NCBI GenBank assembly: GCA_016209105.1
Contig: JACQWR010000005.1
Span: 17,125 to 81,124, forward strand
DNA from: Deltaproteobacteria bacterium
Lineage (GTDB): Bacteria; Desulfobacterota; Syntrophia; Syntrophales; JACQWR01
DNA length: 64,000 bases
Direction of reading: 5' to 3'
In this document: positions 18,777 through 51,581 of the stretch, piece after piece
Layout: the number at the start of each line of letters is the position of its first letter
Numbering within the stretch: the first letter of the stretch is position 1
The notes under the pieces: generated by a model
Seen by the model: only the letters and a program-made list of their open reading frames with translations
What the model was told of the DNA's origin: nothing
Databases searched by the model: none
Made by a program: the position numbers and the translations under genes

Positions 18777-18799
18777 TGGCGTCTACCTCGGTTTTTCGG

Positions 18800-21417: not shown

Positions 21418-21468
21418 CCTTTTGCCTCCATGTGGAGCTTCTCGCGAAACTCTTTCTTCAGGATAGAG

Positions 21469-22728: not shown

Positions 22729-22744
22729 CGATCGGTCCTCATGT

Positions 22745-22866: not shown

Positions 22867-22874
22867 TATTCACG

Positions 22875-22929: not shown

Positions 22930-22961
22930 TATTCCGTTTTTTGCGTGAAAGCCGGGCACGA

Positions 22962-29957: not shown

Positions 29958-30824
29958 CTAAGTCTTCTTCGTCTTTGCAATAAGCAGTATAACGGCGCCC
30001 ATACCCATAAAAATCAGGGCAAGGAAAGCGGAAACGTTTCTCCGGAAGCGTAGTTCGTCAAACAAATCCTGTATTCTCTTCTCGATGATGTCCAGTTTTG
30101 CGGTAAATTCATCCGTCCTTTTCTTGACCAGGGACACGTCCTCCGTATGGAAGAGGGCGCGGAATTCGCCATAGGTGCCAAAGAGGCTCTTTTCTTCCTC
30201 ATCCGCCGCCATGCCTTCGGTCTTCAGCTGCTTGAGACGGTTGTTCAATTCCTCGATCTTCTTTTCGGTAAGGAAAAGGGCCTGTCTCATAACCTTTGAT
30301 CGTTCATAGGAGTGGCACTTCGTGCAGAGCTTCTCGTTGATGATATCAATGCTCGCCTGCTGGATATTGTGCGAGCCATGGCAGGTAACGCAGTTCGGCC
30401 CTTTCCCCGATGACTTCAGCGCCATGCCGTGACCGCTCTCCTGATAATTTTTCAGGATGCCGATGTGACATTTCCCGCAAAATTCGGGAACCTGCGCGGG
30501 CTTCGGGGTCCCCGCAAAAAAGCGGTGCGGGTCCATGGACGTGGCCGCATCTTTCGGATCGCCGCCGTGACAGCTGTGGCAGGAAACGTCGTTCTGATAA
30601 TGCCAGCTCTGCTTCCATTCAGTCGGTATCGCGCGGAACTCGGATTTAATGATATCCGAAGCATGACATTCAATGCAGGCATCACTTTCCTCGCGATCGC
30701 CCGCCCAGGGTTCGCTCAGGAATTCCTTCTGGAACGTCTCCCGGTAACCGGCCATAGCCGCGGCGGGCGAGGTCTGTACGGCGACCATGACAGCAATGAC
30801 GAGCAGCGAAAGGACGTATCTCAT
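29958..30824 (-). CDS. Pentaheme c-type cytochrome, membrane anchored
   Basis: A 288-aa periplasmic cytochrome c. The signal peptide spans about 1-24 (ends AAAMA). Five CxxCH haem sites: CIECH, CHSCH, CGKCH, CVTCH and CTKCH. A charged helical region (about 190-255, Lys/Glu-rich, coiled-coil-like) and a C-terminal membrane segment (about 264-283) anchor it. It is encoded 20 bp after cytochrome b and follows the Rieske gene, so it most likely replaces cytochrome c1 as electron acceptor of a bc-type quinol oxidoreductase. Such multihaem variants occur in deltaproteobacteria. Confidence 0.9.
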   Translation of the reverse strand: MRYVLSLLVIAVMVAVQTSPAAAMAGYRETFQKEFLSEPWAGDREESDACIECHASDIIKSEFRAIPTEWKQSWHYQNDVSCHSCHGGDPKDAATSMDPHRFFAGTPKPAQVPEFCGKCHIGILKNYQESGHGMALKSSGKGPNCVTCHGSHNIQQASIDIINEKLCTKCHSYERSKVMRQALFLTEKKIEELNNRLKQLKTEGMAADEEEKSLFGTYGEFRALFHTEDVSLVKKRTDEFTAKLDIIEKRIQDLFDELRFRRNVSAFLALIFMGMGAVILLIAKTKKT

Positions 30825-30843
30825 CGGCGCCTCAATAATGTCG

Positions 30844-31935
30844 TCAATATCTTCCCCAGATTGTTAATACCAGCCATAGGGTTATCACCGATAGGGACAA
30901 CCCGAACAGTAAGGGCCTTTTTAATATATTCCCCTCTTTTCTGGCATCAAAAAAGGGCCAGAAGATAAAGAGCACTCCCATGATCACCTGAACGCTCAGG
31001 GTAAAAAACTTATTCGGAATGAGCTTCAGCATCTGGTACGGGGCAAGGAGATACCATTCCGGTCTCACCTGGGCGGGGGTCTTCAGGGGATTGGCCTGGA
31101 TAACGCTTCCCTCGGGAAGGAAAAGTCCCGGCAGGAACGTAATCAACAGGAACAGGACAGAGAGATAGACCATGACCATAAATGCCGCCCGTACCATAAA
31201 ATACGGGTAGACCGGGTGACCGTCGGGGTATGTCTCCTTCCGGTAGGCCGTCCTCGGACTCGTATTTTCCGGTTCCGTCCCGAAGGGGGGAGAGGAAATG
31301 CCGATACGCCTCACCAGGAATAGGTGGAACACGAGAAGCAGGAAAAACACAAAGGGCAGAAAAGACACGTGCAGGGCAAAGAACCTATTGAGCGTGAGGG
31401 CAGACATCTGCCCGCCGCTCCGCAACACTTCGGTAATGAATTCTCCGGCGTATGGGAAAGAGGACGGTATTGCCGTAGCGATGGTGGTCTGCCAGTAGTT
31501 CAATTGGCTCCAGGGCAGGAGGTTGCCGCTGAAAGCGAAAAAAACCGTTGTAAAAAAAAGGAGCCCCCCCGCGATCCAGGTCATCTCGCGGGGATTTTTA
31601 TAGCTTCCCATCACAAAGACCGACAGCATGTGCATCGTCATGGTAACCAGCAGCAGGGCGCCGCCCACCACGTGCATCGTCCTGAAAAGCCAGCCGTAGG
31701 GGATGTCCTGCATGATGGATTGAACACTGGTGAAGGCCTGCTCCGTATTGGGGGCATAGTAGAGGAGGAGGCAAAAACCGGTAAACACCTGAATGACGAA
31801 TGCCGCCAGCGCCGCGCAGCCAATGGTTTGGAAGATACTGACGTTCTTCGGCGCCCTGCAGGAATCGAGTCCCTCCTTCACGAGCTCGCCGATCCCTATC
31901 CGTACCTCAAACCAGCCGATGATCTTATCCCACAT
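30844..31935 (-). CDS. Cytochrome b (b6 + subunit IV fusion) of a bc-type complex
   Basis: A 363-aa polytopic cytochrome b. The ATG at 31935 (GGTGAG upstream, 4 nt after the Rieske stop) is preferred to a TTG four codons earlier. The haem-ligating His pairs are in MHVVGGALLLVTMTMH (13 residues between) and LHVSFLPFVFFLLLVFH (14 between), the b6-type pattern. The quinol-site PEWY motif appears in QVRPEWYLL. The protein covers both b6-like and subunit IV-like halves. Acts in the cytoplasmic membrane with the Rieske protein and the pentaheme cytochrome. Confidence 0.93.
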   Translation of the reverse strand: MWDKIIGWFEVRIGIGELVKEGLDSCRAPKNVSIFQTIGCAALAAFVIQVFTGFCLLLYYAPNTEQAFTSVQSIMQDIPYGWLFRTMHVVGGALLLVTMTMHMLSVFVMGSYKNPREMTWIAGGLLFFTTVFFAFSGNLLPWSQLNYWQTTIATAIPSSFPYAGEFITEVLRSGGQMSALTLNRFFALHVSFLPFVFFLLLVFHLFLVRRIGISSPPFGTEPENTSPRTAYRKETYPDGHPVYPYFMVRAAFMVMVYLSVLFLLITFLPGLFLPEGSVIQANPLKTPAQVRPEWYLLAPYQMLKLIPNKFFTLSVQVIMGVLFIFWPFFDARKEGNILKRPLLFGLSLSVITLWLVLTIWGRY

Positions 31936-31939
31936 GTTC

Positions 31940-32347
31940 TCACCCAATTACCACGTCGTCGCCTTTTATCTTTAGGGAAATTTCCCGAAGGGGCCTGGTC
32001 GGCAATCCTGAAATGACGGCGCCGTCGAGGTCGTATACCCCCGCGTGGCAGGGACACAGGAGCCTCTTTTTGCTTTTGTCGTAGTCCACGAGACAACCGA
32101 GGTGGGTGCATACCCGGGAGAGGGCCACGAAACCGCCGTCGGGCCGGTTAATGATAATGGCGGGCGTCCCGTTGAAAACGATGTCCCGCGCCGCGCCTAT
32201 GGGTATTTCCGTTTTCTTGAAGGCCAGTTGTTTCCCCTTTGGTTCGCCACGGGTAGCCGAGAGGAACCGAGCGAGCGGATACAGCAGGGAACCGAAAGCC
32301 GTGAAACCAAGAACAGCCAACATAATTTTGAGAAACCTGCGCCTCAT
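31940..32347 (-). CDS. Rieske [2Fe-2S] protein
   Basis: A 135-aa Rieske subunit. The N-terminal membrane/Tat-like segment has RRRFLKIMLAVLGFTAFGSLLYPLARF (about 2-28). The cluster motifs are CTHLGC and CPCHAG, giving Cys-His/Cys-His ligation. The ATG at 32347 is chosen since it places the anchor at the N-terminus, and GGGGGC lies upstream. First gene of the Rieske-cytochrome b-pentaheme cytochrome operon. Confidence 0.93.
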   Translation of the reverse strand: MRRRFLKIMLAVLGFTAFGSLLYPLARFLSATRGEPKGKQLAFKKTEIPIGAARDIVFNGTPAIIINRPDGGFVALSRVCTHLGCLVDYDKSKKRLLCPCHAGVYDLDGAVISGLPTRPLREISLKIKGDDVVIG

Positions 32348-32640
32348 CGTGCCCCCAGTTAACGCATAAAAAATGGACACCAACACTCTCACAGGAAAAT
32401 AAACGGCTGGGCTTGGAGCAAGAAATGGGTCGGTGGACGGGTGAGGAAAACCGCGAAACACCGATCATGTTGTTATTTGTTAAGGCCCCCTCCATCCTAA
32501 AACATCAAGGGTGGAGGGGGAAAGTAACAAAGGCGATATTATTTGTCAAGATATAATCAATGAAACTCCTTGCCTACGGGCAGGATTGATGCTCTCAACC
32601 GCAAACCACGGAAAGCCTCAATCCTGCTCATGCTATCCGG
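32348..32640. other. Region upstream of the Rieske operon
   Basis: About 290 bp with no supported gene. 32486-32497 and 32509-32520 form an 11-of-12 pair inverted repeat (CCCCCTCCATCC ... GGGTGGAGGGGG) without a U-tract on either strand. It could be an operator or mRNA structure. The rest holds scattered AT-rich promoter-like DNA but no convincing -35/-10 pair. Confidence 0.4.
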
Positions 32641-33007: not shown

Positions 33008-33050
33008 AGCGCCGTGCAGGGGGAAACGGCGTTTTCCCCTGCACGGCGCT
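33008..33050 (-). terminator. Intrinsic terminator of the HCR/UbiD-D operon
   Basis: A 15-bp perfect stem (33008-33022 AGCGCCGTGCAGGGG with 33036-33050), followed on the minus strand by TTCTTATTT. Placed 23 bp past the bicupin 2 stop, it closes the long minus-strand operon. Confidence 0.85.
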
Positions 33051-33073
33051 AACGCGGAGTTCTCGGAATGCTT

Positions 33074-34126
33074 CTATTTCGGAAGTTTGAATTCGATCCC
33101 TTCCTTGGCCAGTTCCTGCAGAAATATTTCCCGGAGTTTCGGGTCTTCATCCTCGTATTCGATCTGGTGGCCGCCCAGCTTGGTGCTCAGCCACCATTTT
33201 TCCCCCTCGTGGAAGTGCTTCCCCGGCAGAAATTTCTTGCTGTGATACCGAAACGCCATGTACCGGGCCGGTTCCCGGGCGAGGTTGAAATGCTGGTGAA
33301 ACCACATGCGCGGGGGCACCAGCAGGCTGCCCTTATGCCAGTCGAACCGCTGGTAGGGCTTGTCCTCCTCCCACATCATCGTGTATCCTTTCCCCTTGAG
33401 CTGCAGCACGTGCGCCCCCGGTGAATGACGGTGGGCTTTTTTATACACGCCCACGGGATATTCGGAGATATGGGCGATCATCGTGTTGCTGGCCAGCTCA
33501 AACTTGATGCTCTTTCCCCCCTTGGCGCGCATCTCGTAGTCCTTCAGGCTGAAGGTTGCCACGTTGGGCACAAAGTTCGTGTCCCAGGTCTTTTCGTCGA
33601 GCAGACTCCCCGCGCCGCTGAAGTAGTCCTGCTGGCCGTTGAAGCGGTCGGTGAAGACGAAATTGTTGTTGAAGATGAAGTCGTGGTTGTGAAAGAGATC
33701 AATGACCGGCGGGGCGTCGGTCACGGCCAGATAGCGGGCCGGCTTGTCGCCAGCATTAAAGTGCTGATGCCGGGCGTTGAGGGGCACGGCAAAGAGGCTG
33801 CCCTCCTGCCAGGCACAGGTGACCTTTGGCCCTCCCTCGTTCCAGACCTCCGTCTTCCCCGTGCCGTCCAGGATCAGGATCGTCTCCTCGAAGAGATGTT
33901 TCTGCGGCTTTAAAACGCCGTGCGCGGGGATCTCGCAGATATAGGCGGCGGCGCAGTCCTCGGCGCCCGTGAGGCAGAGGTGGATGCCGCTCCCCCCCTT
34001 GCGCGGCCAGGGTTTCAGGGGCGCCGCACGCACGTCGTCCACCATGTAATCGCGGATGACGTCAATCCCCTCCGTTGCCAGCCATTTTTCATAGGTGGTA
34101 AGCGTTGCCAACTCTTCCGTCTTCAT
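33074..34126 (-). CDS. Bicupin protein 2
   Basis: A 350-aa two-barrel cupin. The ATG at 34126 follows GGAGGGCGGG. Domain 1 has LKPQKHLFEETILILDGTG and NARHQHFN. Domain 2 has KKAHRHSPGAHVLQLKGKG and FHQHFNLAREPARYMA. The C-terminal tail GGHQIEYEDEDPK matches bicupins 1 and 3, and the N-terminal TTYEKWLATEG is shared with bicupin 3. Last gene of the operon, 54 bp after UbiD-D. The close pairing of bicupins with UbiD genes suggests a shared pathway step. The enzymatic activity is unknown. Confidence 0.82.
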   Translation of the reverse strand: MKTEELATLTTYEKWLATEGIDVIRDYMVDDVRAAPLKPWPRKGGSGIHLCLTGAEDCAAAYICEIPAHGVLKPQKHLFEETILILDGTGKTEVWNEGGPKVTCAWQEGSLFAVPLNARHQHFNAGDKPARYLAVTDAPPVIDLFHNHDFIFNNNFVFTDRFNGQQDYFSGAGSLLDEKTWDTNFVPNVATFSLKDYEMRAKGGKSIKFELASNTMIAHISEYPVGVYKKAHRHSPGAHVLQLKGKGYTMMWEEDKPYQRFDWHKGSLLVPPRMWFHQHFNLAREPARYMAFRYHSKKFLPGKHFHEGEKWWLSTKLGGHQIEYEDEDPKLREIFLQELAKEGIEFKLPK

Positions 34127-34180
34127 AATCCCGCCCTCCTTATCCTTCCCGCATGCGCAGAGAAGTTCTCGCACACGCCT

Positions 34181-35779
34181 TCAGCGCATCTTTTTCCTGC
34201 CGGCCTTCAGCTTTTCCCCCGTTTCGTAGTAACGCCCCTCGACGGCCAGTTTCGCTTCCTTGTCCAGCTCATCGTCCCACTGTCCCAGCGAATATCCGTA
34301 CCAGGGCCGTTCCGGCTTGAGCGGCGGCAACCCCAGTTTCTCCCAGAGGTCCCGTCCCTTTTCCATGAACTCCTTTTTGGGAAGCGAGATGGGCGGAAAC
34401 GGTTCTTTGAGAATCGCGTTTATGAGCAGGGCCGAGTCTTCCGCCGCGTGTGTATGGGCGATCGGCACCGCTCCCGTGCTGGCCCCCGAAAAAGGCGGCG
34501 CATGCCCCTTTTCCATCCCCCGCACGATGGCCAGATCTTGGTGGGGCTTCATCCGGTAGCACATGGCCCAGAAGACGGCATGGGGGTCCTCCGGATCAAT
34601 GTCCTCATCCACCGCAACGATGATCTTGCCCACGCCGACATGGAAGACGGCCGCCCCGTGCAACGCCCGCCATATCTCGCTCTCGCTGGGGTTGTGCATC
34701 TGGATGATGAGGAGTTTCCTCAAATTCGTGAGGGGTTCGTGCATGGAGACGCGCACCACGCTCTTGATGCTCAGCTCGTGGCGGAGGTGGCGGTAAAAGA
34801 GGGGTTCATACCCGATCTTCTTCAGCACGCTGCTCTCGCTCGGCGTGACCTGGCTGATGAACGAAACAAAGACGGCGTCCTTGCGATGGGTAATGGCCGT
34901 CACGTCCATCACCATGCTCAGTTCTCTCGGATGCATGTAACCGTGCGATTCGCCGAAGGGGCCTTCGGGCTCGAGGTATTCGGTGGAAATATTTCCCTCA
35001 ATAACGATCTCCGCTTCCGCCGGGACCTCGATGTCCACGGTTTTGCACTTGACGAGGCGTATCGGTTCTCCGGCCAGACCGCCGGCAATCGAAAGTTCAT
35101 CCACCCCGTAGGGGAACTTCTGCACCGCGGCGAAAGACACCATCGGGGGCGCCCCGACCACGAGGGCCGCCTGCATGGGGATGCCTTTCTGCCGGCATTT
35201 ATCCCAGTGCAGGTAGGCGTCCTGGGCAATCCCGCCCGTGTAGAGACCCACATTCAGGGGACTCTTGATCTGGCCGCGATAATTGCCCACGTTGCGGATC
35301 CCCGTCTCCGGATCCTTGGTAAACCAGTGGCTGCACGTCGTATAGGGCCCGTTGTCGAAACCGGGGGTGGAAATGGGAACGGGAATCTCGTCGAGTCCCA
35401 GGCTCTTCAAGTCCTTGCCCATATGGACCTCCTCCTGCACCGGCCCGGAGGAAACGATCACGGGATCAATGGGATGGGCAATGGCCTTTTCCCAGCGCGC
35501 GTTTATCTCTTCCAAGGGACAGCCCATGCCCACGGCATAGATGCGCGGAGAGGCCGCCAGCGCCCCCACGGTAACGGGAATGCTGTATTTCCGGTTACGG
35601 GAGTCGGTGACATTTTCAAAGAGAAACGCCTTTCTCTCCGCTTCCGGGATCCCCCCCCGAAACTGCCAGCGCACCAGGGGGTGCATTTCCGTGTCTTTGT
35701 TCACCGGCTCTTTGATCCGGTACAGCAAGCCCTGTTCTTCCAGCCTTTTCAGATGTTCGTGCAAATCCGTATAGCCCAT
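34181..35779 (-). CDS. UbiD-family decarboxylase, paralogue D
   Basis: A 532-aa prenyl-FMN-type (de)carboxylase. The ATG at 35779 has GAGGTGAG upstream (an alternative GTG lies 9 nt earlier). The triad is intact: NVGNYR (R168), EGPFGE (E272, E277). AAVQKFPYGVDELSIAGGLAGEPIRLVKCKTVDIEVPAEAEIVIEG is a typical mid-domain, and KIIVAVDEDIDPEDPHAVFWAMCYR precedes the C-terminal part. A C-terminal extension of about 60 residues is rich in charged residues. It is encoded in the same operon as the molybdenum hydroxybenzoyl-CoA-reductase-like enzyme and TTT set 3, so an aromatic or heteroaromatic acid is the inferred substrate. Confidence 0.92.
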   Translation of the reverse strand: MGYTDLHEHLKRLEEQGLLYRIKEPVNKDTEMHPLVRWQFRGGIPEAERKAFLFENVTDSRNRKYSIPVTVGALAASPRIYAVGMGCPLEEINARWEKAIAHPIDPVIVSSGPVQEEVHMGKDLKSLGLDEIPVPISTPGFDNGPYTTCSHWFTKDPETGIRNVGNYRGQIKSPLNVGLYTGGIAQDAYLHWDKCRQKGIPMQAALVVGAPPMVSFAAVQKFPYGVDELSIAGGLAGEPIRLVKCKTVDIEVPAEAEIVIEGNISTEYLEPEGPFGESHGYMHPRELSMVMDVTAITHRKDAVFVSFISQVTPSESSVLKKIGYEPLFYRHLRHELSIKSVVRVSMHEPLTNLRKLLIIQMHNPSESEIWRALHGAAVFHVGVGKIIVAVDEDIDPEDPHAVFWAMCYRMKPHQDLAIVRGMEKGHAPPFSGASTGAVPIAHTHAAEDSALLINAILKEPFPPISLPKKEFMEKGRDLWEKLGLPPLKPERPWYGYSLGQWDDELDKEAKLAVEGRYYETGEKLKAGRKKMR

Positions 35780-35897
35780 TTCCCTCACCTCATTTATCGT
35801 GATTTTATTGATTTACCTCAATGCCGGCAACCCCTCCACCGCCTTCCGCCTCCCTGCCCGGAAAACAGACGGTTAAAACCGCCAACCGGGCCCGCAG

Positions 35898-36380
35898 TTA
35901 CTTATCCGAAAACGGTTTTCCCGTCCCGGCAAGCCGGGCGACGGCCCCGAACACCTTTACATATCCCGTACAGCGGCACAGGTTCCCCGATATTCCCTCC
36001 CTGATCTCCTCGAAAGTGGGATGGGGATTGCGATCCAGAAGCGCTTTCGTCGAGAGCACCATACCGGGGGTGCAGAAACCGCATTGGATCGCGCCCTCCT
36101 CAACAAACGCCTCCTGTATCCGGTCAAGCTCGCCGTTGTTGGCCAGGCCTTCGATGGTCAGGATGTTTTTCCCCTGGGCATCCAGGGCAAGCATCAGGCA
36201 GGAAAGAACCGATTCCCCATCGCAGAGAACCGTGCAGGCGCCGCACTCGCCGCCGTCACAGCCCTCCTTGGTCCCGGTCAGTCCCAAATAATCGCGCAAA
36301 ACGTGCAGCAGCGTTACCTGCGGCCCGACATTCAGCATATAACTCCGGCCGTTTATTTGCAGTTTAATCGGCTGCTCCAT
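35898..36380 (-). CDS. 2x[2Fe-2S] small subunit of a xanthine-oxidase-family enzyme (HcrC-like)
   Basis: A 160-aa iron-sulfur subunit of normal length. The plant-type ferredoxin cluster ligands are C41, C46, C49 and C61 (EGCDGGECGACT ... SC). The second cluster has C100, C103, C135 and C137 (QCGFCTPGM ... NLCRCTGY). Delivers electrons between the FAD/[4Fe-4S] subunit and the molybdenum site. Oddly it is separated from its HcrB and HcrA partners by tctA-tctB-tctC, yet in the same orientation and probably on the same mRNA. AAGGAG precedes the ATG. Confidence 0.93.
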   Translation of the reverse strand: MEQPIKLQINGRSYMLNVGPQVTLLHVLRDYLGLTGTKEGCDGGECGACTVLCDGESVLSCLMLALDAQGKNILTIEGLANNGELDRIQEAFVEEGAIQCGFCTPGMVLSTKALLDRNPHPTFEEIREGISGNLCRCTGYVKVFGAVARLAGTGKPFSDK

Positions 36381-36408
36381 GCCGTTTTCTCCTTCTTTTT
36401 CGAAGCCG

Positions 36409-37479
36409 TTAACCCTTATATGACTTGAGCGTCTTCTTAATAAGCTCTATCAGTTGGGCAGGCATCTGCAGATCCTGCTTGACCGACTGGGTCACGGCGG
36501 CGGCATCGGCGGGATCGAGCGGTCGTTTCTGTTTCTCGCCGATGGCCTGCAGCTCCGGATCGCTCAAGGCCTTTATTACCGCGGTCTTCAGGAATTTTAG
36601 CCGGTTGGCCGGTATTCCGGGCGGGGCGGCAAAGACCCGGTCAAATATCGCCTGATGATTGATAAACGTCAACAGGGATTTTCCTGACGGCGTAAGGTTC
36701 GGCAATTCCGTCCCCAGGGGAATCGTGGGCATCTCCTTGTGACGGGCGGCGGCAAATTGAACGATGGGGATCATATCCCCGCTTTTGATGAATTTCTGCT
36801 TGCTGGTATAACTGCCGATCGTTCCATCCACATCGCCCCGTATCACCGCCAAATCCTGTTCACTCGAACCCTCGTAGGCGGTGATCAACTTTATATTCAG
36901 GCCCAACGCCTCGCTGAAGAGGGCAAGGTGATTGAAATCGGAACTGAGAACCCCGGCTGCGGAAAACTTCACCGGACGGGTGGATTTTTTTATCTCATCC
37001 AGCGTCCGGTAGGGGGATTTGACTCCCGCCGTTACCAGCCTGTTTTCCGAAGCCACCCGGGCGAGCCAGTTCACCTTGTTCATGTCGAATCCCATGTTCT
37101 CGCCCAGGATCGTACGCACCACCAGCGCGGACAACTGGACGATAGACATCGTCAGTCCATCGGGCCGCGCGCGGTACATCTGGAGCGTGCCCACAATGGT
37201 GCCGCCGCCCGGAACATTTTGAATGATCACGGTGCTGCCCGTGTTTTTCTCTATGAAGGGAGCAATCATCCGCGCATAGGCATCGTAGCCCCCGCCCGGT
37301 CCGTAGGGCACCACCAGGACCAGTATTTTCCCCTTATAAAAGGCGGCTTCCTTCACCATAGCGGCGTTATCCGAGCCCTTGTCGCTTACCGCACCCTGCG
37401 CCCTGCTCCCGCTCATCGCTATCACCGCTATCGCCAGAAAAAGCATTGCGCCCCGCAAAACCCCTCTCGTCAAAGTCAT
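36409..37479 (-). CDS. TctC/Bug receptor (TTT set 3)
   Basis: A 356-aa periplasmic receptor with a signal peptide (about 1-30, ends SRAQGA). A GGGGAGGAGG ribosome site precedes the ATG. LVVPYGPGGGYDAYARMIAPFIEK, NVPGGGTIVGTLQMY and RPDGLTMSIVQ are the family blocks. Nearest in this window to the receptor at 14321-15367. It follows tctB by 93 bp and precedes the HcrC-like gene by 28 bp, placing acid uptake inside the molybdoenzyme operon. Confidence 0.92.
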   Translation of the reverse strand: MTLTRGVLRGAMLFLAIAVIAMSGSRAQGAVSDKGSDNAAMVKEAAFYKGKILVLVVPYGPGGGYDAYARMIAPFIEKNTGSTVIIQNVPGGGTIVGTLQMYRARPDGLTMSIVQLSALVVRTILGENMGFDMNKVNWLARVASENRLVTAGVKSPYRTLDEIKKSTRPVKFSAAGVLSSDFNHLALFSEALGLNIKLITAYEGSSEQDLAVIRGDVDGTIGSYTSKQKFIKSGDMIPIVQFAAARHKEMPTIPLGTELPNLTPSGKSLLTFINHQAIFDRVFAAPPGIPANRLKFLKTAVIKALSDPELQAIGEKQKRPLDPADAAAVTQSVKQDLQMPAQLIELIKKTLKSYKG

Positions 37480-37572
37480 AACGCCTCCTCCCCGTTAAAT
37501 GATTTTCCCTCCATTCCCCCCATAGTTGCCCCGGAATCACGTTTCCGTACCCGTCCTGCCCGGCGCTGTCCT

Positions 37573-38034
37573 TCACTGAGAAAAAATCCAGCCGCGGTAG
37601 AGAATAACACGGAAAGCGACCTCCACCAGCAGATAGATAACGACGGTGGAAATGCCCGCAATGGCAATAGTCAGCGGCCAGCGTTCCTTTGCCCAGAGAC
37701 GCAAAAAAATCAGCAGAAAAACCGGCGTCGCCACGAGAAAACCCACGAGCCATATCAGGACAGCAAAAAAGATAAACCAGCCGATCATTTTCCGTTCTTC
37801 GCTGAACGGGGCGTCAATCTCGAAGCTCTCCTCGCCACCGCCCTCCGCCGCTTCTTCCTGAAGCCGGGGGTGACGGTATATGATCCACAGGTGGACCGCG
37901 CTCAAAATAATCGCCGGAACGACCAGCAGCAAGGGCGCCAGCCGGGCGCGCGCGTCATACTGCCAGGTCGCGGCAAAAAGCAGAGAAAAAAACAGCAAAA
38001 GAAACCAGGTAAATGCCCTTTCTGCGCTATGCAT
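37573..38034 (-). CDS. TctB-type small membrane subunit (TTT set 3)
   Basis: A 153-aa membrane protein with about four hydrophobic segments (near 8-25, 29-50, 83-110 and 118-140) and an acidic linker (about 52-75, GGGEESFEID). The ATG at 38034 has GGGAGGG upstream and overlaps the end of tctA by 8 nt. Small subunit of the third tripartite tricarboxylate transporter. Confidence 0.85.
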   Translation of the reverse strand: MHSAERAFTWFLLLFFSLLFAATWQYDARARLAPLLLVVPAIILSAVHLWIIYRHPRLQEEAAEGGGEESFEIDAPFSEERKMIGWFIFFAVLIWLVGFLVATPVFLLIFLRLWAKERWPLTIAIAGISTVVIYLLVEVAFRVILYRGWIFSQ

Positions 38035-39517
38035 GGGTTTCCCTCCCTTTCCGCCGGCGGGCAAGCAGGATCGGCAGAGTGAGCCCCAGCACGAGTAGAA
38101 TAAAAATGGTGAATGTGATCGGACGGAAGAGAAAGAAATTGCCGAATAACTGCACCGAGAGATGGAAATTCAGTTCGGCGGCCTTCCCCAGCACCATGCC
38201 CACCAAAAGCGGCGCCCGTGGATACCGCGCCTTGATCATCACATATCCCAGCAATCCGAAAATCAGGGTGGCTGCAATGTCGTAAAAACTGTTCCGGACG
38301 CCGTACGACCCCAGGAAACACAGCAGCACCACCAGGGCGGAAAGGATGGGGCCGCGGATGAGGGTTAGGCGGGCGAGGGGAGCGGCAAAGGTCATGCACA
38401 TCGCGGCCCCGATAACATTTGCCAGGGCCAGGATCATGATCATGCCGTAAATCAGGTCCAAATGCTCTTCCAACATGCCGGGCCCCGGGTCTATGCCTTT
38501 CACCATGAACGCCCCCAGCAGGAGCGCCATGCCCGCCCCGCCCGGAATGCCGAAGCCGAGGGTCGGCACCAGGTTCCCCCCTTCCTTGGCATTGTTCGCG
38601 CTCTCGGGAGCGATGACGCCTTCCACGTTTCCCCTTCCGAACGTTTCGGGGCTCGAGGAAACCTGCCGGGCAAAACCATAGGTGATGAAGCTCGATACCG
38701 TCCCGCCCAGGCCGGGGATGAGCCCAATGAGGGCGCCCAGGGAACTGCACCGCAGGATCAACCACCATTTCCGGAAACAGACCGCAATGCCCTCCCAAAG
38801 ATCGGCCAGGGTTCCCACCGTTTCGATGGTGCGCGCCACACCTTTTCCCCGCATCGTCCCCACGGAGATCATTTCCCCGATGGCAAAAAGGCCGACGGTA
38901 AGGGGTACCAGGTCCACCCCGTCAAAGAGATAGAGGGTGCCGAAATTATAGCGGGCATCGCCGGTCTGGGGATCGAAGCCCACCATCGCCAGCATCAGGC
39001 CCATGATCCCGCTGATCACGGCCTTCATTGTGGAGCCCGTTCCCAGGGAGGCGATATAGGAAATGCCGAGCATGATCAGCATGAATATCTCCGGCGGGCC
39101 GAAGGACATGACGATAGGGCGGATGAGCGGTATCATGATCAGGAGAAACACCGCCGCGAAGACGCCGCCCATGGCCGAAGACGTGAAGGCCGCCCCGAGA
39201 GCGACGCCCGCTTTCCCGTTGCGCGCCATGGGATAGCCGTCGAAGCACGTGGCTGCGCAGGCGGCTTCGCCCGGACAATTGATCAGAATGGAGGAAATGG
39301 CGCCGCCTGTGTTGATGACGGCATGGGTCCCGAGCAGCAGGGCGAAGGCGTCAAACGGCGTCAGCTTGTAAACGAAGGGAATGAGAATGGCCAGGGCAAA
39401 CACCCCGCCCAGTCCCGGCAGGAAGCCGATAATATTTCCGAAGACCACCCCCGCCAGCAGCAGGGCCATTGAGGAAGGCGTGAAGACCTCGGCAAACCCC
39501 TCCAGCATCATTTCCAT
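38027..39517 (-). CDS. TctA-family permease (TTT set 3)
   Basis: A 496-aa permease with about 11 membrane segments. NIIGFLPGLGGVFALAILIPF, GKAGVALGAAFTSSAMGG, GLIPGLGGTVSSFITYGFARQ and KEGGNLVPTLGFGIPGGAG are the diagnostic loops. The ATG at 39517 follows GGAGG at 9-nt spacing. Located between the HcrB-like gene and tctB. Together with TctB and TctC at 36409-38034 it forms a full uptake system. Confidence 0.95.
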   Translation of the reverse strand: MEMMLEGFAEVFTPSSMALLLAGVVFGNIIGFLPGLGGVFALAILIPFVYKLTPFDAFALLLGTHAVINTGGAISSILINCPGEAACAATCFDGYPMARNGKAGVALGAAFTSSAMGGVFAAVFLLIMIPLIRPIVMSFGPPEIFMLIMLGISYIASLGTGSTMKAVISGIMGLMLAMVGFDPQTGDARYNFGTLYLFDGVDLVPLTVGLFAIGEMISVGTMRGKGVARTIETVGTLADLWEGIAVCFRKWWLILRCSSLGALIGLIPGLGGTVSSFITYGFARQVSSSPETFGRGNVEGVIAPESANNAKEGGNLVPTLGFGIPGGAGMALLLGAFMVKGIDPGPGMLEEHLDLIYGMIMILALANVIGAAMCMTFAAPLARLTLIRGPILSALVVLLCFLGSYGVRNSFYDIAATLIFGLLGYVMIKARYPRAPLLVGMVLGKAAELNFHLSVQLFGNFFLFRPITFTIFILLVLGLTLPILLARRRKGRETHA

Positions 39518-39632
39518 GCAGGAGAACCTCCGACAGAGAATCCCGGCGTTTTCACCGGACGACATCAATCTGGTCAGTGAAGCTCCCCGCTCAGCGAGCG
39601 GGGCTTCCCGGCCACCCTCACGGGTCCTGTCG

Positions 39633-40610
39633 TCAGGGAACCAGGCGGGCCCGGGCGCGTTGCATCAGGACGCCAAATAGATACTTCCGGTACGCCGGGC
39701 TGATGCCCTGGTGACGCACCGGCCGCAACTCCTTCAGGGCATCTCCCCATTCTTCTTCCGTGATTTCCCGGCGCACATCCCGCCCGGCCAGCAGCGTTTC
39801 CAGACCGGCGAGTCGGAGCGGCCGAGAACATATGCCCGTTGCCGCAACCCGGGGATTGACGAAAGCTCCCGACCGGCTCTTTTCCACGGATACCGCCAGT
39901 CCCGCCAGGGGAAAATCAATGGCCGCCCGCGTGCTGAAACGGAGGTAGGCGCTCACGCGCACGGGTTTCCCGGGGATTTTTATCCCCAGGACAATTTCTT
40001 TTTCCCCGATATCACGGGAGCGGATGCCGTCGTCCCGGTAAAATTCATTGAGGGGCGCTTCCCGCTTGCCCGCGGCTCCTCCGATGCAGACACGGGCATC
40101 CAGCGCCAGCAAGGCGGCCGGCGTATCGGCCGAGAATAGGGCATAGCAGCGCTTCCCCCCCTTGACCACATGGCATCGGTCACCCCCCTTTTTATAACAG
40201 CGGGGGAATGCCCCCGGCCCCTGCCGTTGATTGTAATACAGACAGCGCGTATCAAGGCAGAGGTTGCCGCCGATGGTCCCCATATGGCGCAATTGGGGGG
40301 ATCCCACCCGTGCGGCGGCCTGGGCGAGCGCCGGGAATAAACGGCTGACCAGCTCCGATTCCCGCACATGCTGCAATGCAGAGGCCGCGCCGATAAAAAC
40401 GTCATCCCCCTCCCGTTCGATGACCTTCAGTTCCGCTATATTCTTGAGGCCGATGAGCGCGGCCGGCGCCAGCAGACGCTGCCCCATCCTGGGCAGCACG
40501 TCCGTCCCGCCTCCCAACAGAATAAAGCCGCCGGACGGCGCCTTATCCATGATGTCCCAAAGTCCGGCAAGGGAGAGGGGACGATGATATGCAAAGGGTT
40601 TAAGATGCAT
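39633..40610 (-). CDS. FAD subunit with extra [4Fe-4S] insertion (4-hydroxybenzoyl-CoA reductase beta, HcrB-like)
   Basis: A 325-aa CoxM-type FAD-binding subunit. The FAD loops are LLGGGTDVLP (about 32-41) and MGTIGGNLC (about 110-118). Unlike ordinary xanthine-oxidase-family FAD subunits it carries a Cys-rich insertion: C123, C138, C146 and C155 in the pattern TRC-x14-C-x7-C-x8-C. This matches in spacing, and nearly in numbering, the four Cys I recall for the [4Fe-4S] cluster of Thauera HcrB (122, 138, 146, 155). The ATG at 40610 overlaps the HcrA-like gene by 11 nt. The insertion is the main reason to assign the complex to the hydroxybenzoyl-CoA-reductase branch, which runs the reaction reductively. 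Confidence 0.9.
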   Translation of the reverse strand: MHLKPFAYHRPLSLAGLWDIMDKAPSGGFILLGGGTDVLPRMGQRLLAPAALIGLKNIAELKVIEREGDDVFIGAASALQHVRESELVSRLFPALAQAAARVGSPQLRHMGTIGGNLCLDTRCLYYNQRQGPGAFPRCYKKGGDRCHVVKGGKRCYALFSADTPAALLALDARVCIGGAAGKREAPLNEFYRDDGIRSRDIGEKEIVLGIKIPGKPVRVSAYLRFSTRAAIDFPLAGLAVSVEKSRSGAFVNPRVAATGICSRPLRLAGLETLLAGRDVRREITEEEWGDALKELRPVRHQGISPAYRKYLFGVLMQRARARLVP

Positions 40611-42885
40611 CGCCCCCGCCCTTGCGGGATTTGAGCGCCCGCCAAACCACCTCGGACGTGATGGGAAGCTCCGTAAACCGTATTCCCGTGGCGTCGAACA
40701 GGGCATTGGCCACGGCCGGGGCCGTGGGGACCTGAAATCCCTCGCAGACGCCCTTCGCCCCGAAGGGCCCTTCCGGGTCTATGGTTTCGATAGGATAACT
40801 CCGGATAACCGGCGCCTCGCCTGAGGTGGGCACCTTATATTCCAGAAAGGTCGGGTTCATCGTCCGTCCCCCTTCGCTCAAGCGGTCTTCCGCGAGCGCC
40901 ATTCCCAGTCCGCAGACAATGGCCCCCTCCGCCTGGCCCTCCAGGGCCATGGGGTTTATTGCCCTGCCGCAGTCGGACGCCGCCACTACCTGAAGAACCT
41001 TCACCTGTCCCGTCTTCATATCAACTTCCACTTCCGCCACCTGCGCGCCGTAACTGTAGGCAGGTGAAGAATTCCCGTAGCCCGTCCGGTAATCAACCAT
41101 TTCACTGGGGGCGTCATAGTACCCGCGGCCCACAACGAAAACGCCTTCCTTCCTGAGCAGTTGCGCAATGGCCTCGGCAAAGGAAAGAAACAGATCATCC
41201 CGGCCACGAACGGAAATAGCGCCTTCCCGGCAGGAAATTTTCTCTTGAGGAACCGACCAGCGCCGCGCCAGGTGTTGGAAAAGCTGCTGCCTCGCGTCTG
41301 CCGCCGCCTTTTTGGCCGCATTGCCGGCGACAAACGTAACGCGGCTGGCATAGGAGCCCAGATCCATGACGCCCATTCGGGTATCGGCGGCCACCACATT
41401 GATTTTTTCCAAAAGAACGCCCAGTTCCTCGGCCACGATCTGGGCCAAGGTCGTATCGGAGCCCTGTCCGATATCGGAGGCGCCGGTAAAGAAATCCACC
41501 GTCCCATCCTCATTAGGCCGCACCAACGCCGAAGAGCTGTCGTATTCGTACAGTGAGCGCAGGGCGCTCACGTAGTCATTGCAGGCGATCCCGATGCCCC
41601 GTCCATACTGTTTCTTCCGCCGTTTCTGATGCCAGCCTGATTCCTCGGCCACTTTCAACAGGCACTCCTTTATCCCGCAGCTGGTGATCTTCTTGCCGCT
41701 TGCCGTGGTGTCCCCCGATTCCACAACGTTCTTCAAACGCACGTCCAGGGGGTCCATGCCCAGTTCCTCGGCTATCAGGTCCATCTGACTCTCGTCGGCA
41801 AAACGCACCTGGAGGGAGCCGTAACCGCGGAACGCGCCGCCGACGGGGTTATTCGTATAGACATGGTAACCGGCATACCGCACGTGGGGGATCCGATAGA
41901 GGGAAGCAAGGGATGCCCCGGCATAGGACAGGATCCCGGGCCCCCGGCTGTTGTAGGCGCCGCCGTCGGCGATGACGGTGCAATCCTTGGCCCTGAGCGT
42001 GCCGTCCTTTGCATAACCCGTCCTGATGGTGATAACCATGGGGTGGCGCTGCCGCGAGGCGATAAATTCCTCCGTCCGGGAATAGACGATCTTGACCGGA
42101 CGCCCCGTTTTCATGGCCAAGAGCGCCGCGCAGAAGTCGGAGGCGAACATCTCGCGCTTGCCGCCGAACCCTCCCCCCATGCGGGGTTTAATGACGCGGA
42201 TGTTTCCTTCCGCCAGCCCGATCGTCAGCGCCAGGTCCTTGCGCAGGGCATAGGGCCCCTGGGTCGTAGACCAGAGGGTGAGGCGTCCGCCGGCAAACTC
42301 CGCCACGGCGGCGTGCGGTTCCATGCTGCAGTGGATTTGCGCCTGGGTAACGAAGGTGTCTTCCCGCACGCAGTCGCTGGCCGCGAATCCCTCTTCCACG
42401 TTCCCCCAGTGGAAACGGGGCGCATAGCTGACGTTGTTCGGCGCTTCGTCGTGGATCACGGGAGCGCCTTCGCGCATAGCCTCTTCGGGACTGAAAACGG
42501 CGGGGAGTTCTTCGTACTCCACCTCAATCAGGGAAAGGGCCTCCTCGGCGGCATCCTCATCAACGGCGGCAACGGCCGCCACCTGTTCGCCCACGTACCG
42601 GACCTTCCCCACGGCGAGGCCGTATTCATCATAGTTGGAAGCGCGGTATCCGTATTTCTGTTTGAGCGTGTCTGCGCCGGTTATGACCGCAAGCACTCCC
42701 CTTACGGCCCCGGCCTTTTCGGCGTGTATGGCTGCGATGCGGGCATGGGGGAGCGGACTGCGCAGTATCCTCCCTCTCAGCATGCCCGGCAGGACAATAT
42801 CAACGGTGTACTTGGCTTCGCCGGTAACGATTTCCGGGGCATCGGTCCTCGGCGTCCTCCGGCCGATAACGGAATAGTGCGCCAC
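40600..42885 (-). CDS. Molybdopterin-binding large subunit (4-hydroxybenzoyl-CoA reductase alpha, HcrA-like)
   Basis: A 761-aa large subunit of the xanthine oxidase family. The start is a GTG at 42885 with GGGAGGGG upstream, 11 nt after the bicupin 3 stop. TGEAKYTVDIVLPGMLRGRILRSPLPHARI is the usual N-terminus, KPRMGGGFGGKREMF and FRGYGSLQVRFADESQMDLIAEEL are cofactor/substrate blocks, and the active-site Glu is E715 in GAKGVCEGFQ. In hydroxybenzoyl-CoA reductase this subunit removes the para-hydroxyl group as water. The genes could equally encode a related aryl-CoA or heteroaromatic dehydrogenase. No ferredoxin donor gene is in the operon. Confidence 0.9.
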   Translation of the reverse strand: MAHYSVIGRRTPRTDAPEIVTGEAKYTVDIVLPGMLRGRILRSPLPHARIAAIHAEKAGAVRGVLAVITGADTLKQKYGYRASNYDEYGLAVGKVRYVGEQVAAVAAVDEDAAEEALSLIEVEYEELPAVFSPEEAMREGAPVIHDEAPNNVSYAPRFHWGNVEEGFAASDCVREDTFVTQAQIHCSMEPHAAVAEFAGGRLTLWSTTQGPYALRKDLALTIGLAEGNIRVIKPRMGGGFGGKREMFASDFCAALLAMKTGRPVKIVYSRTEEFIASRQRHPMVITIRTGYAKDGTLRAKDCTVIADGGAYNSRGPGILSYAGASLASLYRIPHVRYAGYHVYTNNPVGGAFRGYGSLQVRFADESQMDLIAEELGMDPLDVRLKNVVESGDTTASGKKITSCGIKECLLKVAEESGWHQKRRKKQYGRGIGIACNDYVSALRSLYEYDSSSALVRPNEDGTVDFFTGASDIGQGSDTTLAQIVAEELGVLLEKINVVAADTRMGVMDLGSYASRVTFVAGNAAKKAAADARQQLFQHLARRWSVPQEKISCREGAISVRGRDDLFLSFAEAIAQLLRKEGVFVVGRGYYDAPSEMVDYRTGYGNSSPAYSYGAQVAEVEVDMKTGQVKVLQVVAASDCGRAINPMALEGQAEGAIVCGLGMALAEDRLSEGGRTMNPTFLEYKVPTSGEAPVIRSYPIETIDPEGPFGAKGVCEGFQVPTAPAVANALFDATGIRFTELPITSEVVWRALKSRKGGGDAS

Positions 42886-42896
42886 GTCCCCTCCCG

Positions 42897-43973
42897 TTAC
42901 TTCTTCCCCGCCACGGGCGGCATCTGTATCGTGAGCCCCTCTTTCGCCAGTTCATCCTCAAACAACTTCCGCACCGCCGGGTCTTCATCCTCGTACTCTA
43001 TCTGATCTCCGCCTTCCCGGATGCTCACCTCGCACATCTCCGTCTTGCGTCCGGTCCGGAACTTCAGTCCTTCCCAGCGCAGGGCCAGGTAGCGGGCGGG
43101 GGTTTTCCCCGTATTGAAGTGCTGATGGAACCACTGGTCCGGCGGCACCACGATGCTCCCTTCGTGCCAGTCGTATTTTTGCAGCGGCATCCCCTCCCGC
43201 CACATCAGCGTGTAGCCCTTGCCGCTCAAGATCACCACGTGGGCCCCGGGACCGTGGCGGTGCGCCTTCTTGTACGTCCCTACCGGAAATTCGGAAATGT
43301 GGGAGCAGAGGGTGTTGTTTGCTATCTCAAAATAGACGTTCTTGCTGCCTTTGCCCCGTTCCGCCCAATCCTGAAGCTGAAACGTCCTGACATCGGGAAT
43401 GAAATTCGTATCCCAGACCCGCCCCGGGTGGGCAGTCCCCTTCCCGCTGAAGTAATCCGCTTCCGCGCCGTAGCGATCTTTGAACACAAAGGGATTGTGG
43501 AAAATAAACTCGTGATTGTGGAAGAGATTGATCACGGTGGGGGCGGTGGTCACGGCCAAATATTTCACCGGCTTATCACCCTGGGTATTGAAGTGCCGAT
43601 GCCAGATGTTTAAGGGAGGAGAAAAAAGGCTCCCCTCCCGCCACTCGATAAACCGCTCAGGCCCCCCCTCATGCCAGAAGGTAGTCGTCCCCCGTCCTTT
43701 TAATATGAAGATCAATTCCTCAAAAAGATGACGCTGGGGTTTGAGGCTCTGTCCGGGAGGAATTTCACAGAGGTACGCGTCGTTCGTCTGCCCCCCTCCT
43801 TCGAGATTGATGAAGGCGCCCAGGCCGCCCTTTCTGCTCCAAGGCTTGAGGGGAACCTTGTCCACGTCTTCCAGGTGATAACCCGTAACCACTTCCAGCC
43901 CCTCTGATTCCAGCCACTTCTCATAGGTGGTCTTGGTGCCGAACGGCGACGGCGGCATCTTTTTTTCCTGCAT
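42897..43973 (-). CDS. Bicupin protein 3
   Basis: A 358-aa two-barrel cupin. The ATG at 43973 follows AAGGAGGAG. Domain 1: LKPQRHLFEELIFILKGRG and IWHRHFN. Domain 2: KKAHRHGPGAHVVILSGKG and FHQHFNTGKTPARYLA. The tail GGDQIEYEDEDPA is common to all three bicupins. It is closest to bicupin 2 (TTYEKWLESEG at the N-terminus). It lies between a TctC gene and the HcrA-like gene in one tightly packed operon (24 and 11 nt gaps), so it is expressed with the molybdoenzyme. Activity unknown. Confidence 0.82.
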   Translation of the reverse strand: MQEKKMPPSPFGTKTTYEKWLESEGLEVVTGYHLEDVDKVPLKPWSRKGGLGAFINLEGGGQTNDAYLCEIPPGQSLKPQRHLFEELIFILKGRGTTTFWHEGGPERFIEWREGSLFSPPLNIWHRHFNTQGDKPVKYLAVTTAPTVINLFHNHEFIFHNPFVFKDRYGAEADYFSGKGTAHPGRVWDTNFIPDVRTFQLQDWAERGKGSKNVYFEIANNTLCSHISEFPVGTYKKAHRHGPGAHVVILSGKGYTLMWREGMPLQKYDWHEGSIVVPPDQWFHQHFNTGKTPARYLALRWEGLKFRTGRKTEMCEVSIREGGDQIEYEDEDPAVRKLFEDELAKEGLTIQMPPVAGKK

Positions 43974-43997
43974 GGTGCACTCCTCCTTTTTCAAACG

Positions 43998-44996
43998 CTA
44001 AAACTTGCCGTGTCTGGCGACTTCTGCGGTGATATCCGCCGGCTGACCGAGGACGTATTGAATGAGTTTCATGACCTCCGGTCCGGAGGTATACACCAGG
44101 TCCATCTTCATTTTCTGTGCTTCTTCCCGGACCTGCGGATCCTCGGCAATCTTGCGGAAGGCATTCCGCAAGATATCCATGATATGAGACGGCGTGCCGG
44201 GGGGCGCCACGAAGGGACGCCCCAACTGGTCGGGCGCGGCAAGAATTTTCACGATGGTCTTCAATCTCTTGTCGGCGGTGAGGTCCGCATTGACGGGCAG
44301 ATTCTCAATGCCGACGGCGGAGATCGGTCCCCGCATGAGGGGTCTGATCAGGCCCCGGTCAATATAGGGCTTGGCGCTCGTATAGGTGAATCCATACCCG
44401 CTGACCTCTTTGCGCTCGATGGCGAGGAGGATGTCCGCGGTCTGGGGGTAGGTGACGAATTTTACGTTCGGACCGAGAAGCTCCCGCAAGAGCGGCACAA
44501 ACTGGGAACCCGTATCTATTTCACCCGTGTTGCCGATGAAGACCGGCTCTTTTGCATTGCGGAGGTCTTCCACGGTTTTGTAAGGCGTGTCCCCGCGGAT
44601 GGTAAATACCGCCGCCTCCACCGCCGCCGATCCCACCCAGGCATACTTCCTCAGGTCAAACCGAACCCCGTCCATTTTTAAGAGCTGCGACAAGGTCAGA
44701 TATCGGTTGAAGGTGCCGATGGTGAGGCCGTCGGGTTTGGCCATGTTGTAGACATAATTAGCGGTAATCATGCTGCTCGCGCCTGGCATGTTCTGTACCA
44801 AGACGGTGGGCTTGCCCGGGATATGCCGGGGCAGGTGTTTTGCCATTATCCTGGCCATGCGGTCGTAGCCCCCTCCCGGGGCGTATCCCACGACGATGTT
44901 AAGGACTTTGCCCTCGTAATAGGGCTTGGCATCCACCGCACATGGCATAACAACAAGCAACGTCATCATTACAAATGCCCCCACCTTTTTTCTCAT
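43998..44996 (-). CDS. TctC/Bug receptor, GGGYD clade, first gene of the HCR operon
   Basis: A 332-aa periplasmic receptor. GAGGAGGTGAG precedes the ATG. The signal peptide is about 23 residues (ends VDA-KPYY). VVGYAPGGGYDRMARIMAKHLPRH, VQNMPGASSMITANYVYN and KPDGLTIGTFNRYLTLSQLLK make it a close paralogue of the tandem pair at 7455 and 8657, 34 kb away. The operon already contains another receptor (36409), so one TctAB probably serves two binding proteins. Confidence 0.92.
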   Translation of the reverse strand: MRKKVGAFVMMTLLVVMPCAVDAKPYYEGKVLNIVVGYAPGGGYDRMARIMAKHLPRHIPGKPTVLVQNMPGASSMITANYVYNMAKPDGLTIGTFNRYLTLSQLLKMDGVRFDLRKYAWVGSAAVEAAVFTIRGDTPYKTVEDLRNAKEPVFIGNTGEIDTGSQFVPLLRELLGPNVKFVTYPQTADILLAIERKEVSGYGFTYTSAKPYIDRGLIRPLMRGPISAVGIENLPVNADLTADKRLKTIVKILAAPDQLGRPFVAPPGTPSHIMDILRNAFRKIAEDPQVREEAQKMKMDLVYTSGPEVMKLIQYVLGQPADITAEVARHGKF

Positions 44997-49505: not shown

Positions 49506-50249
49506 ATGTTCAAATCTGTCCGCACTGATCGGATATCCATTACTATCGTCAATCAGATCAAGAATGCGATTTTCCAGAAAAAGCTGATGCCGGGAGACAA
49601 GCTTCCCTCTGAGCGCCAGCTTATGGAACAGTTTCAAACCAGTCGGGTAACGATTCGGGAGGCCTTCCGAACGCTTGAAAATTCCGGCATTCTTGAGATA
49701 AGACGCGGCGTCGAAGGCGGCGCCTTTGTCCGGGACCCTTCCGCAACGGTCATCAACAATTTTCTCAGCGATATGCTCCTGATGGGAAACATCGCCATCT
49801 CCAATCTCACGGAAGCGAGGCTGGCCATGGAGCCTTTTTCCGCAAAAATAGCAAGCGAGAGGATGAACGAGGCCTGCCTGAAGCGGATGAGGGAAAATAT
49901 CGGGGAGGCGAAAGACTGTCTAAAGAAAGGAAATCATAACGACGCCCGTCTGCTCAACCTTGAGTTCCACCGGATACTCGCCCATGCGTGTGAAAATCCG
50001 GTGATTTTTTTCCTGATTGACTCGATAATGGAGATCATGGAAAAAAATATTTCCTCGCTTTTCCTCTCCGTTGATTCCGTCCGTCGAACCATAGAACATC
50101 ACGAAATGATCTATGACGCGATTATAAAAGGAGATCACGATGACGCCCGGCGGTTAATGTTGGAACATATCCAGGATATCCAGAGCGCCCTGGAGGCGCT
50201 GGACATTGAGGCCGCCTTTCGCAGCAGGAAAGCGGCTCAGGACGTCTGA
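49506..50249 (+). CDS. FadR-subfamily GntR transcriptional regulator (FCD domain)
   Basis: A 247-aa regulator. The winged HTH at the N-terminus (about 10-75) has KLPSERQLMEQFQTSRVTIREAFRTLENSGILEIRRGV. The all-helical FCD effector domain follows (about 95-230), with DARLLNLEFHRILAHACENPV and HHEMIYDAIIKGDHDDARRLMLEHI giving the metal/ligand His residues. AAAGGAG precedes the ATG. As the first gene before a transport/catabolic cluster it probably represses or activates 50377-57502 in response to a carboxylate. Confidence 0.92.
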   Translation: MFKSVRTDRISITIVNQIKNAIFQKKLMPGDKLPSERQLMEQFQTSRVTIREAFRTLENSGILEIRRGVEGGAFVRDPSATVINNFLSDMLLMGNIAISNLTEARLAMEPFSAKIASERMNEACLKRMRENIGEAKDCLKKGNHNDARLLNLEFHRILAHACENPVIFFLIDSIMEIMEKNISSLFLSVDSVRRTIEHHEMIYDAIIKGDHDDARRLMLEHIQDIQSALEALDIEAAFRSRKAAQDV

Positions 50250-50376
50250 ATCCGGCCGCGAGTGAACGCGCCATGATACGCTTCCTAACGGGAGCAAAGC
50301 TCTTCGCCGCGCGCTAAAAAAGCATCAATGATGATGCACACACTAACAGGTCAAACATCAGTTAAGGAGGGGAAAT

Positions 50377-51567: not shown

Positions 51568-51581
51568 GAAAGGATGCGCAC

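Follow-up and report, generated by a model that had tools for sequence, protein, structure and literature searches.

What might a bacterium do with a likely operon that encodes a carboxylate transporter, a UbiD-type decarboxylase, a molybdenum enzyme resembling 4-hydroxybenzoyl-coenzyme A (CoA) reductase (HCR) and two bicupins? The question is raised by ten open reading frames (ORFs) from a Deltaproteobacteria bacterium, all on the minus strand, which run from position 44996 to 33074 of a 64,000-nucleotide stretch of contig JACQWR010000005.1 (the window). Our tentative answer, which in our judgement falls a little short of probable, is that the run is a single predicted operon in which a hydroxylated aromatic (di)carboxylate would be imported by a tripartite tricarboxylate transporter (TTT), decarboxylated by UbiD and dehydroxylated by the HCR-like enzyme, all without oxygen. 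This reading is drawn from the gene order, the gene families, four cluster cysteines, the catalytic residues of UbiD, the presence of UbiX and the lack of a match to two main families of oxygen reductase. The fold of the cupin proteins comes from a high-confidence structure model.

The genes follow one another in the order tctC1-bicupin1-hcrA-hcrB-tctA-tctB-tctC2-hcrC-ubiD-bicupin2. Pfam assigns two TctC proteins, TctA, TctB, UbiD, three xanthine dehydrogenase (XDH)-type subunits and, in both bicupins, cupin domains. The features are:

43998..44996, minus strand: tctC1, the first gene, a TTT-family solute-binding protein encoded apart from tctAB (Pfam TctC, 1.1e-17), with a GGAGG-like site before its ATG.
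42897..43973, minus strand: bicupin 1, from the ATG at 43973 (longest ORF from 43994), with two stretches matching Cupin_2.
40600..42885, minus strand: hcrA-like molybdopterin subunit of 761 aa (TIGR03194, 771 bits; 1rm6_A, 541 bits).
39633..40610, minus strand: hcrB-like FAD subunit with a [4Fe-4S] loop (TIGR03195, 237.6 bits), its cysteines aligned to 1rm6_B.
38027..39517, minus strand: tctA, the large TTT membrane subunit (longest ORF from 39568; Pfam TctA, 1.5e-128).
37573..38034, minus strand: tctB, the small TTT membrane subunit (Pfam TctB, 2.8e-11), with an 8-bp overlap with tctA.
36409..37479, minus strand: tctC2, a second solute-binding protein (Pfam TctC, 1.8e-20).
35898..36380, minus strand: hcrC-like [2Fe-2S] subunit of 160 aa (Fer2_2, 9.3e-32; TIGR03193, 193.1 bits).
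34181..35779, minus strand: ubiD, a predicted (de)carboxylase dependent on prenylated FMN (prFMN), from the ATG at 35779 (longest ORF from 35788; Pfam UbiD, 1.7e-55).
33074..34126, minus strand: bicupin 2, from the ATG at 34126 (longest ORF from 34174).
33008..33050, minus strand: hairpin with a 15-bp stem and a T-rich tail, a likely intrinsic terminator (fold −39.1 kcal/mol, z = −5.6).

At the likely start codons, the successive intergenic gaps are 24, 11, −11, 115, −8, 93, 28, 118 and 54 bp, the largest being 118 bp. As judged by eye, a GGAG/GAGG-like (Shine-Dalgarno-like) site lies just before nine of the ten starts, the exception being hcrB (ATG at 40610). The energy of the terminal hairpin was calculated on a 76-nt piece, and none of 200 shuffles folded as well; directly 3′ of it lies UCUUAUUU. 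A simple terminator scan did not list the 33008–33050 hairpin, whose loop is probably longer than that scan permits, and a promoter scan did no better than chance (seven hits on both strands, versus 4.6 with a standard deviation of 2.3 in shuffles). Because the same-strand gaps are tight, the Shine-Dalgarno-like sites are in place and a hairpin closes the run, co-transcription of all ten genes as one operon is likely. An initial annotation of this DNA had described ten closely spaced minus-strand genes, from tctC (44996) to bicupin 2, with a closing 15-bp-stem terminator and with the molybdoenzyme subunits split as hcrA-hcrB-tctABC-hcrC. The ORFs and Pfam bear out the order and the families, the split is as described, and the hairpin holds up on folding. 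The "several overlaps" come down to two (hcrA/hcrB, 11 bp; tctA/tctB, 8 bp), and the word "fusing" in the title of that annotation was wrong, as the run contains no gene fusions.

The assignment of the molybdoenzyme as HCR-like, also made in the initial annotation, agrees with the best NCBIfam and PDB matches. For the alpha subunit (hcrA-like), these are TIGR03194, at 771 bits versus an equivalog cut-off of 994.55, and 1rm6_A, at 541 bits over residues 4–754; for the beta subunit (hcrB-like), they are TIGR03195 (237.6 bits; cut-off, 404.55) and again 1rm6. The hcrC-like subunit scores 193.1 bits with TIGR03193 (cut-off, 257.8). Two further models of the XDH type do a little better (201.4 and 194.5 bits), likewise under their own cut-offs, and several models fit about equally. 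In the beta subunit, C123, C138, C146 and C155 align with C122, C138, C146 and C155 of 1rm6_B, which we take to be the ligands of the [4Fe-4S] cluster of HCR. Scoring the [4Fe-4S] loop by alignment of FAD subunits, we found it absent from 15 of the 39 aligned, and all four cysteines were kept in the 24 HcrB relatives that bear it. The same cysteines are present in all 13 sequences examined by eye out of 68 protein-search matches. Among the best 8000 candidates of the HcrB protein search, 24 relatives have 46–79% identity, after which identity falls to 43%. Given this drop, the enzyme looks like a distinct HCR-like branch, judging from sequence.

The identity of UbiD is clear from Pfam membership and conserved catalytic residues. 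R171, E275 and E280 (numbered from the longest ORF start, 35788) align with HmfF and other UbiDs, so that the E(D)-R-E catalytic network, named for UbiDs in the accessible part of PMC8988006, is kept. The best PDB match is 6h6x (171.6 bits, residues 55–432), and 6h6v, identified as HmfF in the same part of that source (PMC8988006), is also among the closest solved relatives; the match to phthaloyl-CoA decarboxylase is weak (66 bits). A single UbiX is encoded in the genome (251.8 bits; cut-off, 108.9), making a supply of prFMN available. In HmfF and several of the other UbiDs aligned, the place of Asp190 of the run's UbiD is taken by a His, a metal ligand near the cofactor (Fdc1 His191). Asp at this position is common to the UbiDs of loci L142, L143, L144, L147, L158 (one UbiD) and L207–L210, and the UbiD of L204 has His.

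The third element, transport, was also correctly identified at the outset: by Pfam, TctA, TctB and TctC are encoded together in the run, along with a second TctC. According to the part of a review available to us (PMC13040137), TTT systems are among those known to import phthalates. We can sketch a route, each step of which is our inference except for this cited uptake of phthalates. Two binding proteins, TctC1 and TctC2, would feed TctAB for import of an aromatic (di)carboxylate, and the prFMN-dependent UbiD would take off one carboxyl. A CoA thioester would be made by an enzyme encoded outside the run, possibly by class III CoA-transferases of a putative phthalate cluster (see below) 10–13 kb beyond the end of the run. 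On this CoA ester, the HCR-like enzyme would reductively remove a hydroxyl of the ring, with electrons passing from a low-potential donor through the [4Fe-4S] cluster to FAD and the [2Fe-2S] clusters and on to molybdenum, and the product would enter benzoyl-CoA metabolism. If this is true, the run shows how an anaerobe can link the import of aromatic acids to their decarboxylation and reductive dehydroxylation on a single mRNA.

What the bicupins would contribute is less obvious. VIA-align places the fold predicted by the high-confidence model closest to that of salicylate and gentisate 1,2-dioxygenases, which suggests that the bicupins share the fold of these enzymes. They differ from them (2phd and 3bu7) in having only 13% and 17% identity, respectively, in the structural alignment, in a host with no detected haem-copper or bd oxidase, and in an N-terminal motif that is partly degenerate; the predicted metal site is most complete in the C-terminal cupin. 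Conservation of H277 and H279 is partly guaranteed by the peptide patterns used to find the loci, and H232, H234 and H239 alone count as independent. With the curated model TIGR02272, bicupin 1 scores 23 bits versus a cut-off of 442.1, and bicupin 2 has no match. We considered ordinary gentisate dioxygenases and rejected them as the principal reading, with curated models far below cut-off and no oxidase of either type. Oxygen-dependent ring cleavage by the bicupins is unlikely here, since a genome that is 92% complete yielded neither a haem-copper nor a bd oxidase. Instead, we see in the bicupins putative relatives of salicylate/gentisate dioxygenase that work independently of oxygen; they would likely bind the hydroxy-acid at their metal site, helping to present or convert it. 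That this fold should serve without oxygen would come as a surprise. If the operon works as proposed, it would also supply a functional context for a widespread family of bicupins, for which neither Pfam nor NCBIfam has a specific model and of which one scan listed at least 540 relatives. A bolder version, in which an oxygen-independent bicupin branch acts together with UbiD and an HCR-type molybdoenzyme, with free hydroxyaromatic acids as the substrates, so that anaerobic decarboxylation and dehydroxylation proceed without a dedicated CoA ligase, strikes us as improbable.

The two bicupins are 55% identical. A recent duplication within the operon is unsupported at this identity, and a tree of 99 rows gave them no well-supported joint branch. 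In the genome as a whole, three of the eight bicupins have a UbiD gene no more than 10 kb away (binomial P = 0.034) and five have TctA at that range (P = 0.0004), although this is weak evidence, as rounded midpoints served as positions and the run's own bicupins were counted in.

To what extent is the arrangement conserved? We examined the best-ranked places, namely 20 regions each for UbiD, HcrA and HcrB relatives and 80 bicupin loci, many on short contigs. Neither UbiD orthologues nor HcrA relatives, bicupins or HcrB relatives led to a second copy of the ten-gene order in these places, an absence that is not proof. Conservation of the whole, on which the initial annotation had staked its proposal, was therefore not seen, and what recurs are smaller modules: UbiD with a molybdoenzyme, and a bicupin with UbiD, TTT or XDH. 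Searched along with the genome itself, 59 relatives had no UbiD orthologue at E ≤ 1e-60. At E ≤ 1e-80, one was present in five other genomes of a phylum sample of 394, and 18 of 20 genomes picked for carrying bicupins had UbiDs at E ≤ 1e-50. Neighbourhoods vary around the best orthologues.

A UbiD gene stands no more than 5 kb from 12 of the 60 HcrA-like matches, against an expectation of about 1.5; these 12 belong to 10 of the 20 genomes. The count takes in 60 of 79 HcrA-like rows, those from the 20 genomes in which UbiD was looked for as well, and, among the UbiD matches listed, the 119 strongest rows. In nine of the 12 pairs, the gap is 638–976 bp; at the four loci examined closely (L207–L210), it is occupied by the small subunit. 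A Desulfobacterales metagenome-assembled genome (MAG) has, at locus L204 (same genome as L067), contiguous ATP-binding cassette (ABC)-transporter genes (by eye), UbiD, HcrA, loop-bearing HcrB and HcrC. At another locus, L259, HcrC, HcrA and loop-bearing HcrB are followed after 78 bp by UbiD.

Across several phyla, bicupins accompany UbiD, TTT, molybdenum enzymes and EutA-like ATPases. In raw counts, which carry no background rate, 57 of the 80 named bicupin loci have at least one of these within 6 kb (EutA-like, 29; TTT, 16; UbiD, 12; XDH, 10), and at none of the 80 do UbiD, TTT and XDH occur together within that distance. Nearest in composition to the run is L018, from a Deltaproteobacteria MAG, where UbiDs, two bicupins, two XdhL, XdhF and XdhS share a strand in an extended array. 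This array also has several genes resembling ABC-type binding proteins (by eye). The EutA-linked loci (e.g. L021, L025, L060, L064 and L083) include many from Actinobacteria and one record named as an archaeon, and the EutA copy in the window belongs to PF06277. We discarded the bicupin/EutA pairing as a clue to the run, in which there is no EutA: by eye, a 32-row clade without the window's bicupins accounts for 23 of the 29 EutA-linked loci.

Several of these observations weigh against import, decarboxylation and dehydroxylation of a hydroxyaromatic acid. None of the three molybdoenzyme subunits reaches its HCR equivalog cut-off, which leaves room for a different substrate. The known HCR takes a CoA thioester as its substrate, and the ten-gene run has neither a CoA ligase nor a CoA-transferase. 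Elsewhere in the genome, a second HCR-like set (contig C15, locus L241), with a [4Fe-4S] loop in its FAD subunit and a UbiD adjoining on the opposite strand, may itself be the regular 4-hydroxybenzoyl-CoA reductase. None of the other genome stretches examined repeats the ten-gene order. A same-strand UbiD lies within 6 kb at only four of the 24 loop-bearing HcrB loci (L191, L204, L246 and L259) and a bicupin at none, in counts that exclude the short-flank loci L098–L141, L161–L190 and L211–L240 (among them loop-bearing L178, L180, L181 and L190). Foldseek alone ranks oxalate decarboxylase first for the bicupin, rather than a ring-cleaving enzyme. Finally, the UbiD + molybdoenzyme blocks at L207–L210 lack the loop and resemble oxidative hydroxylases, and the closest solved relative of UbiD, the furandicarboxylate decarboxylase HmfF, points to heteroaromatic substrates.

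The last two points raise the alternative that survives best, although we consider it unlikely: UbiD would decarboxylate a furan-, pyrrole- or pyridine-type dicarboxylate, and the molybdoenzyme would introduce water-derived oxygen into the ring, after the pattern of the hmf pathway for furoate and furandicarboxylate. In that pathway, a UbiD works alongside a molybdenum hydroxylase. L207–L210 likewise pair UbiDs of the Asp subgroup with loop-less, oxidative-type hydroxylases, the best PDB matches of the run's UbiD are 6h6x and 6h6v, the latter being HmfF, and the lack of a CoA ligase in the run fits as well. However, the HmfF match amounts to just 171.6 bits, over residues 55–432, and the beta subunit bears the [4Fe-4S] loop of HCR, which is not known from enzymes of the furoyl-CoA dehydrogenase type. 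The TTT and the bicupins are further differences between the run and the hmf pathway.

A reaction in the opposite direction seems very unlikely to us. Here a phenol- or aniline-type compound would first be carboxylated with CO2 by UbiD and then lose its hydroxyl or amino group to the HCR-like enzyme, a scheme that has been put forward for degraders of phenol and aniline. The model would be the ani cluster of Desulfatiglans anilini, in which, as in the run, UbiD-like carboxylases and an HCR-like enzyme, suggested to catalyze reductive deamination, stand in one anaerobic cluster (PMC7500099, in its accessible part). Unlike the run, that cluster serves phenylphosphoamidate carboxylation, and the same part of the source mentions neither a TTT nor a bicupin (PMC7500099). 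In addition, the run provides for carboxylate uptake (TctA, TctB and two TctC) and has no kinase or synthase for activation of phenol or aniline. A chance mosaic of genes from several catabolic units, suggested by the unconserved ten-gene order and by a genome dense in UbiD (15), TctA (17) and bicupin (8) genes, is just as poor an explanation of same-strand genes packed tightly enough to overlap, and of UbiD + molybdoenzyme and bicupin + UbiD/TTT/XDH pairs that recur in unrelated genomes.

How new is the combination? The run resembles HcrABC (1rm6) in its three subunits, in the best PDB match of alpha and beta, and in the four [4Fe-4S] cysteines of beta; it differs in that its genes are split by tctABC, no CoA ligase is adjacent, and the scores stay below the cut-offs of TIGR03193, TIGR03194 and TIGR03195. 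With the anaerobic o-phthalate cluster (a CoA-transferase or ligase with a UbiD-type phthaloyl-CoA decarboxylase), it has in common UbiD, carboxylate transport and an anaerobic fate for an aromatic acid, and it departs from that cluster in including the HCR-like enzyme. UbiD acting with CoA activation is known from phthalate degraders, according to the available part of PMC13040137. The initial annotation knew of no described pathway with this composition. In its favor, neither UbiD + cupin + TTT nor UbiD + 4-hydroxybenzoyl-CoA reductase + molybdenum was found as a combination in the literature searched; on the other side, the accessible part of PMC7500099 provides a precedent for UbiD-like with HCR-like in the ani cluster. 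That pairing is thus already known, and the bicupins are the least understood part of the run.

The genome (2.7 Mb) holds nine molybdopterin-enzyme genes besides the 15 UbiD, 17 TctA and eight bicupin genes, with three further weak bicupin matches uncounted. The 15 UbiDs amount to a large expansion when set beside the 0–7 of the 59 relatives, and three bicupin-bearing genomes (G060, G065 and G066) have 132, 96 and 68 first-look UbiD candidates. About 8.6 kb from the run, a second cluster lies on the same strand (window 5871–24506, minus). It includes a phthaloyl-CoA decarboxylase homologue (22962–24506) that matches 8pmk and 8oz5 at about 525 bits, together with two class III CoA-transferases, a SucD-like gene (with SucC by eye), the EutA family gene, a second UbiD, a third bicupin and TctA genes of the TTT. 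From its gene content, this is likely to be an anaerobic phthalate cluster. A Rokubacteria contig (L028) carries counterparts of genes from this cluster and the run: a phthaloyl-CoA decarboxylase-like UbiD (63% identity), a CoA-transferase (52%), a bicupin (58%, to bicupin 1), a further UbiD (59%), TctC (58%) and TctA (63%).

Other genes in the window can be noted briefly. Further UbiD genes occur at 748–3197 and 54277–57502, one adjoining TctC and one adjoining a DctM-type gene of a tripartite ATP-independent periplasmic (TRAP) transporter. Just downstream of the run, 29958–32461 encodes a multihaem cytochrome-like protein, a cytochrome b and a Rieske protein, in this genome with neither a haem-copper nor a bd oxidase detected. 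A deoxyhypusine-synthase family gene (PF01916; 45271–46290) lies 274 bp upstream of the run on the same strand, and 49506–53231 holds a GntR regulator, a DHO_dh/4Fe-4S protein and a FAD_binding_2 protein.

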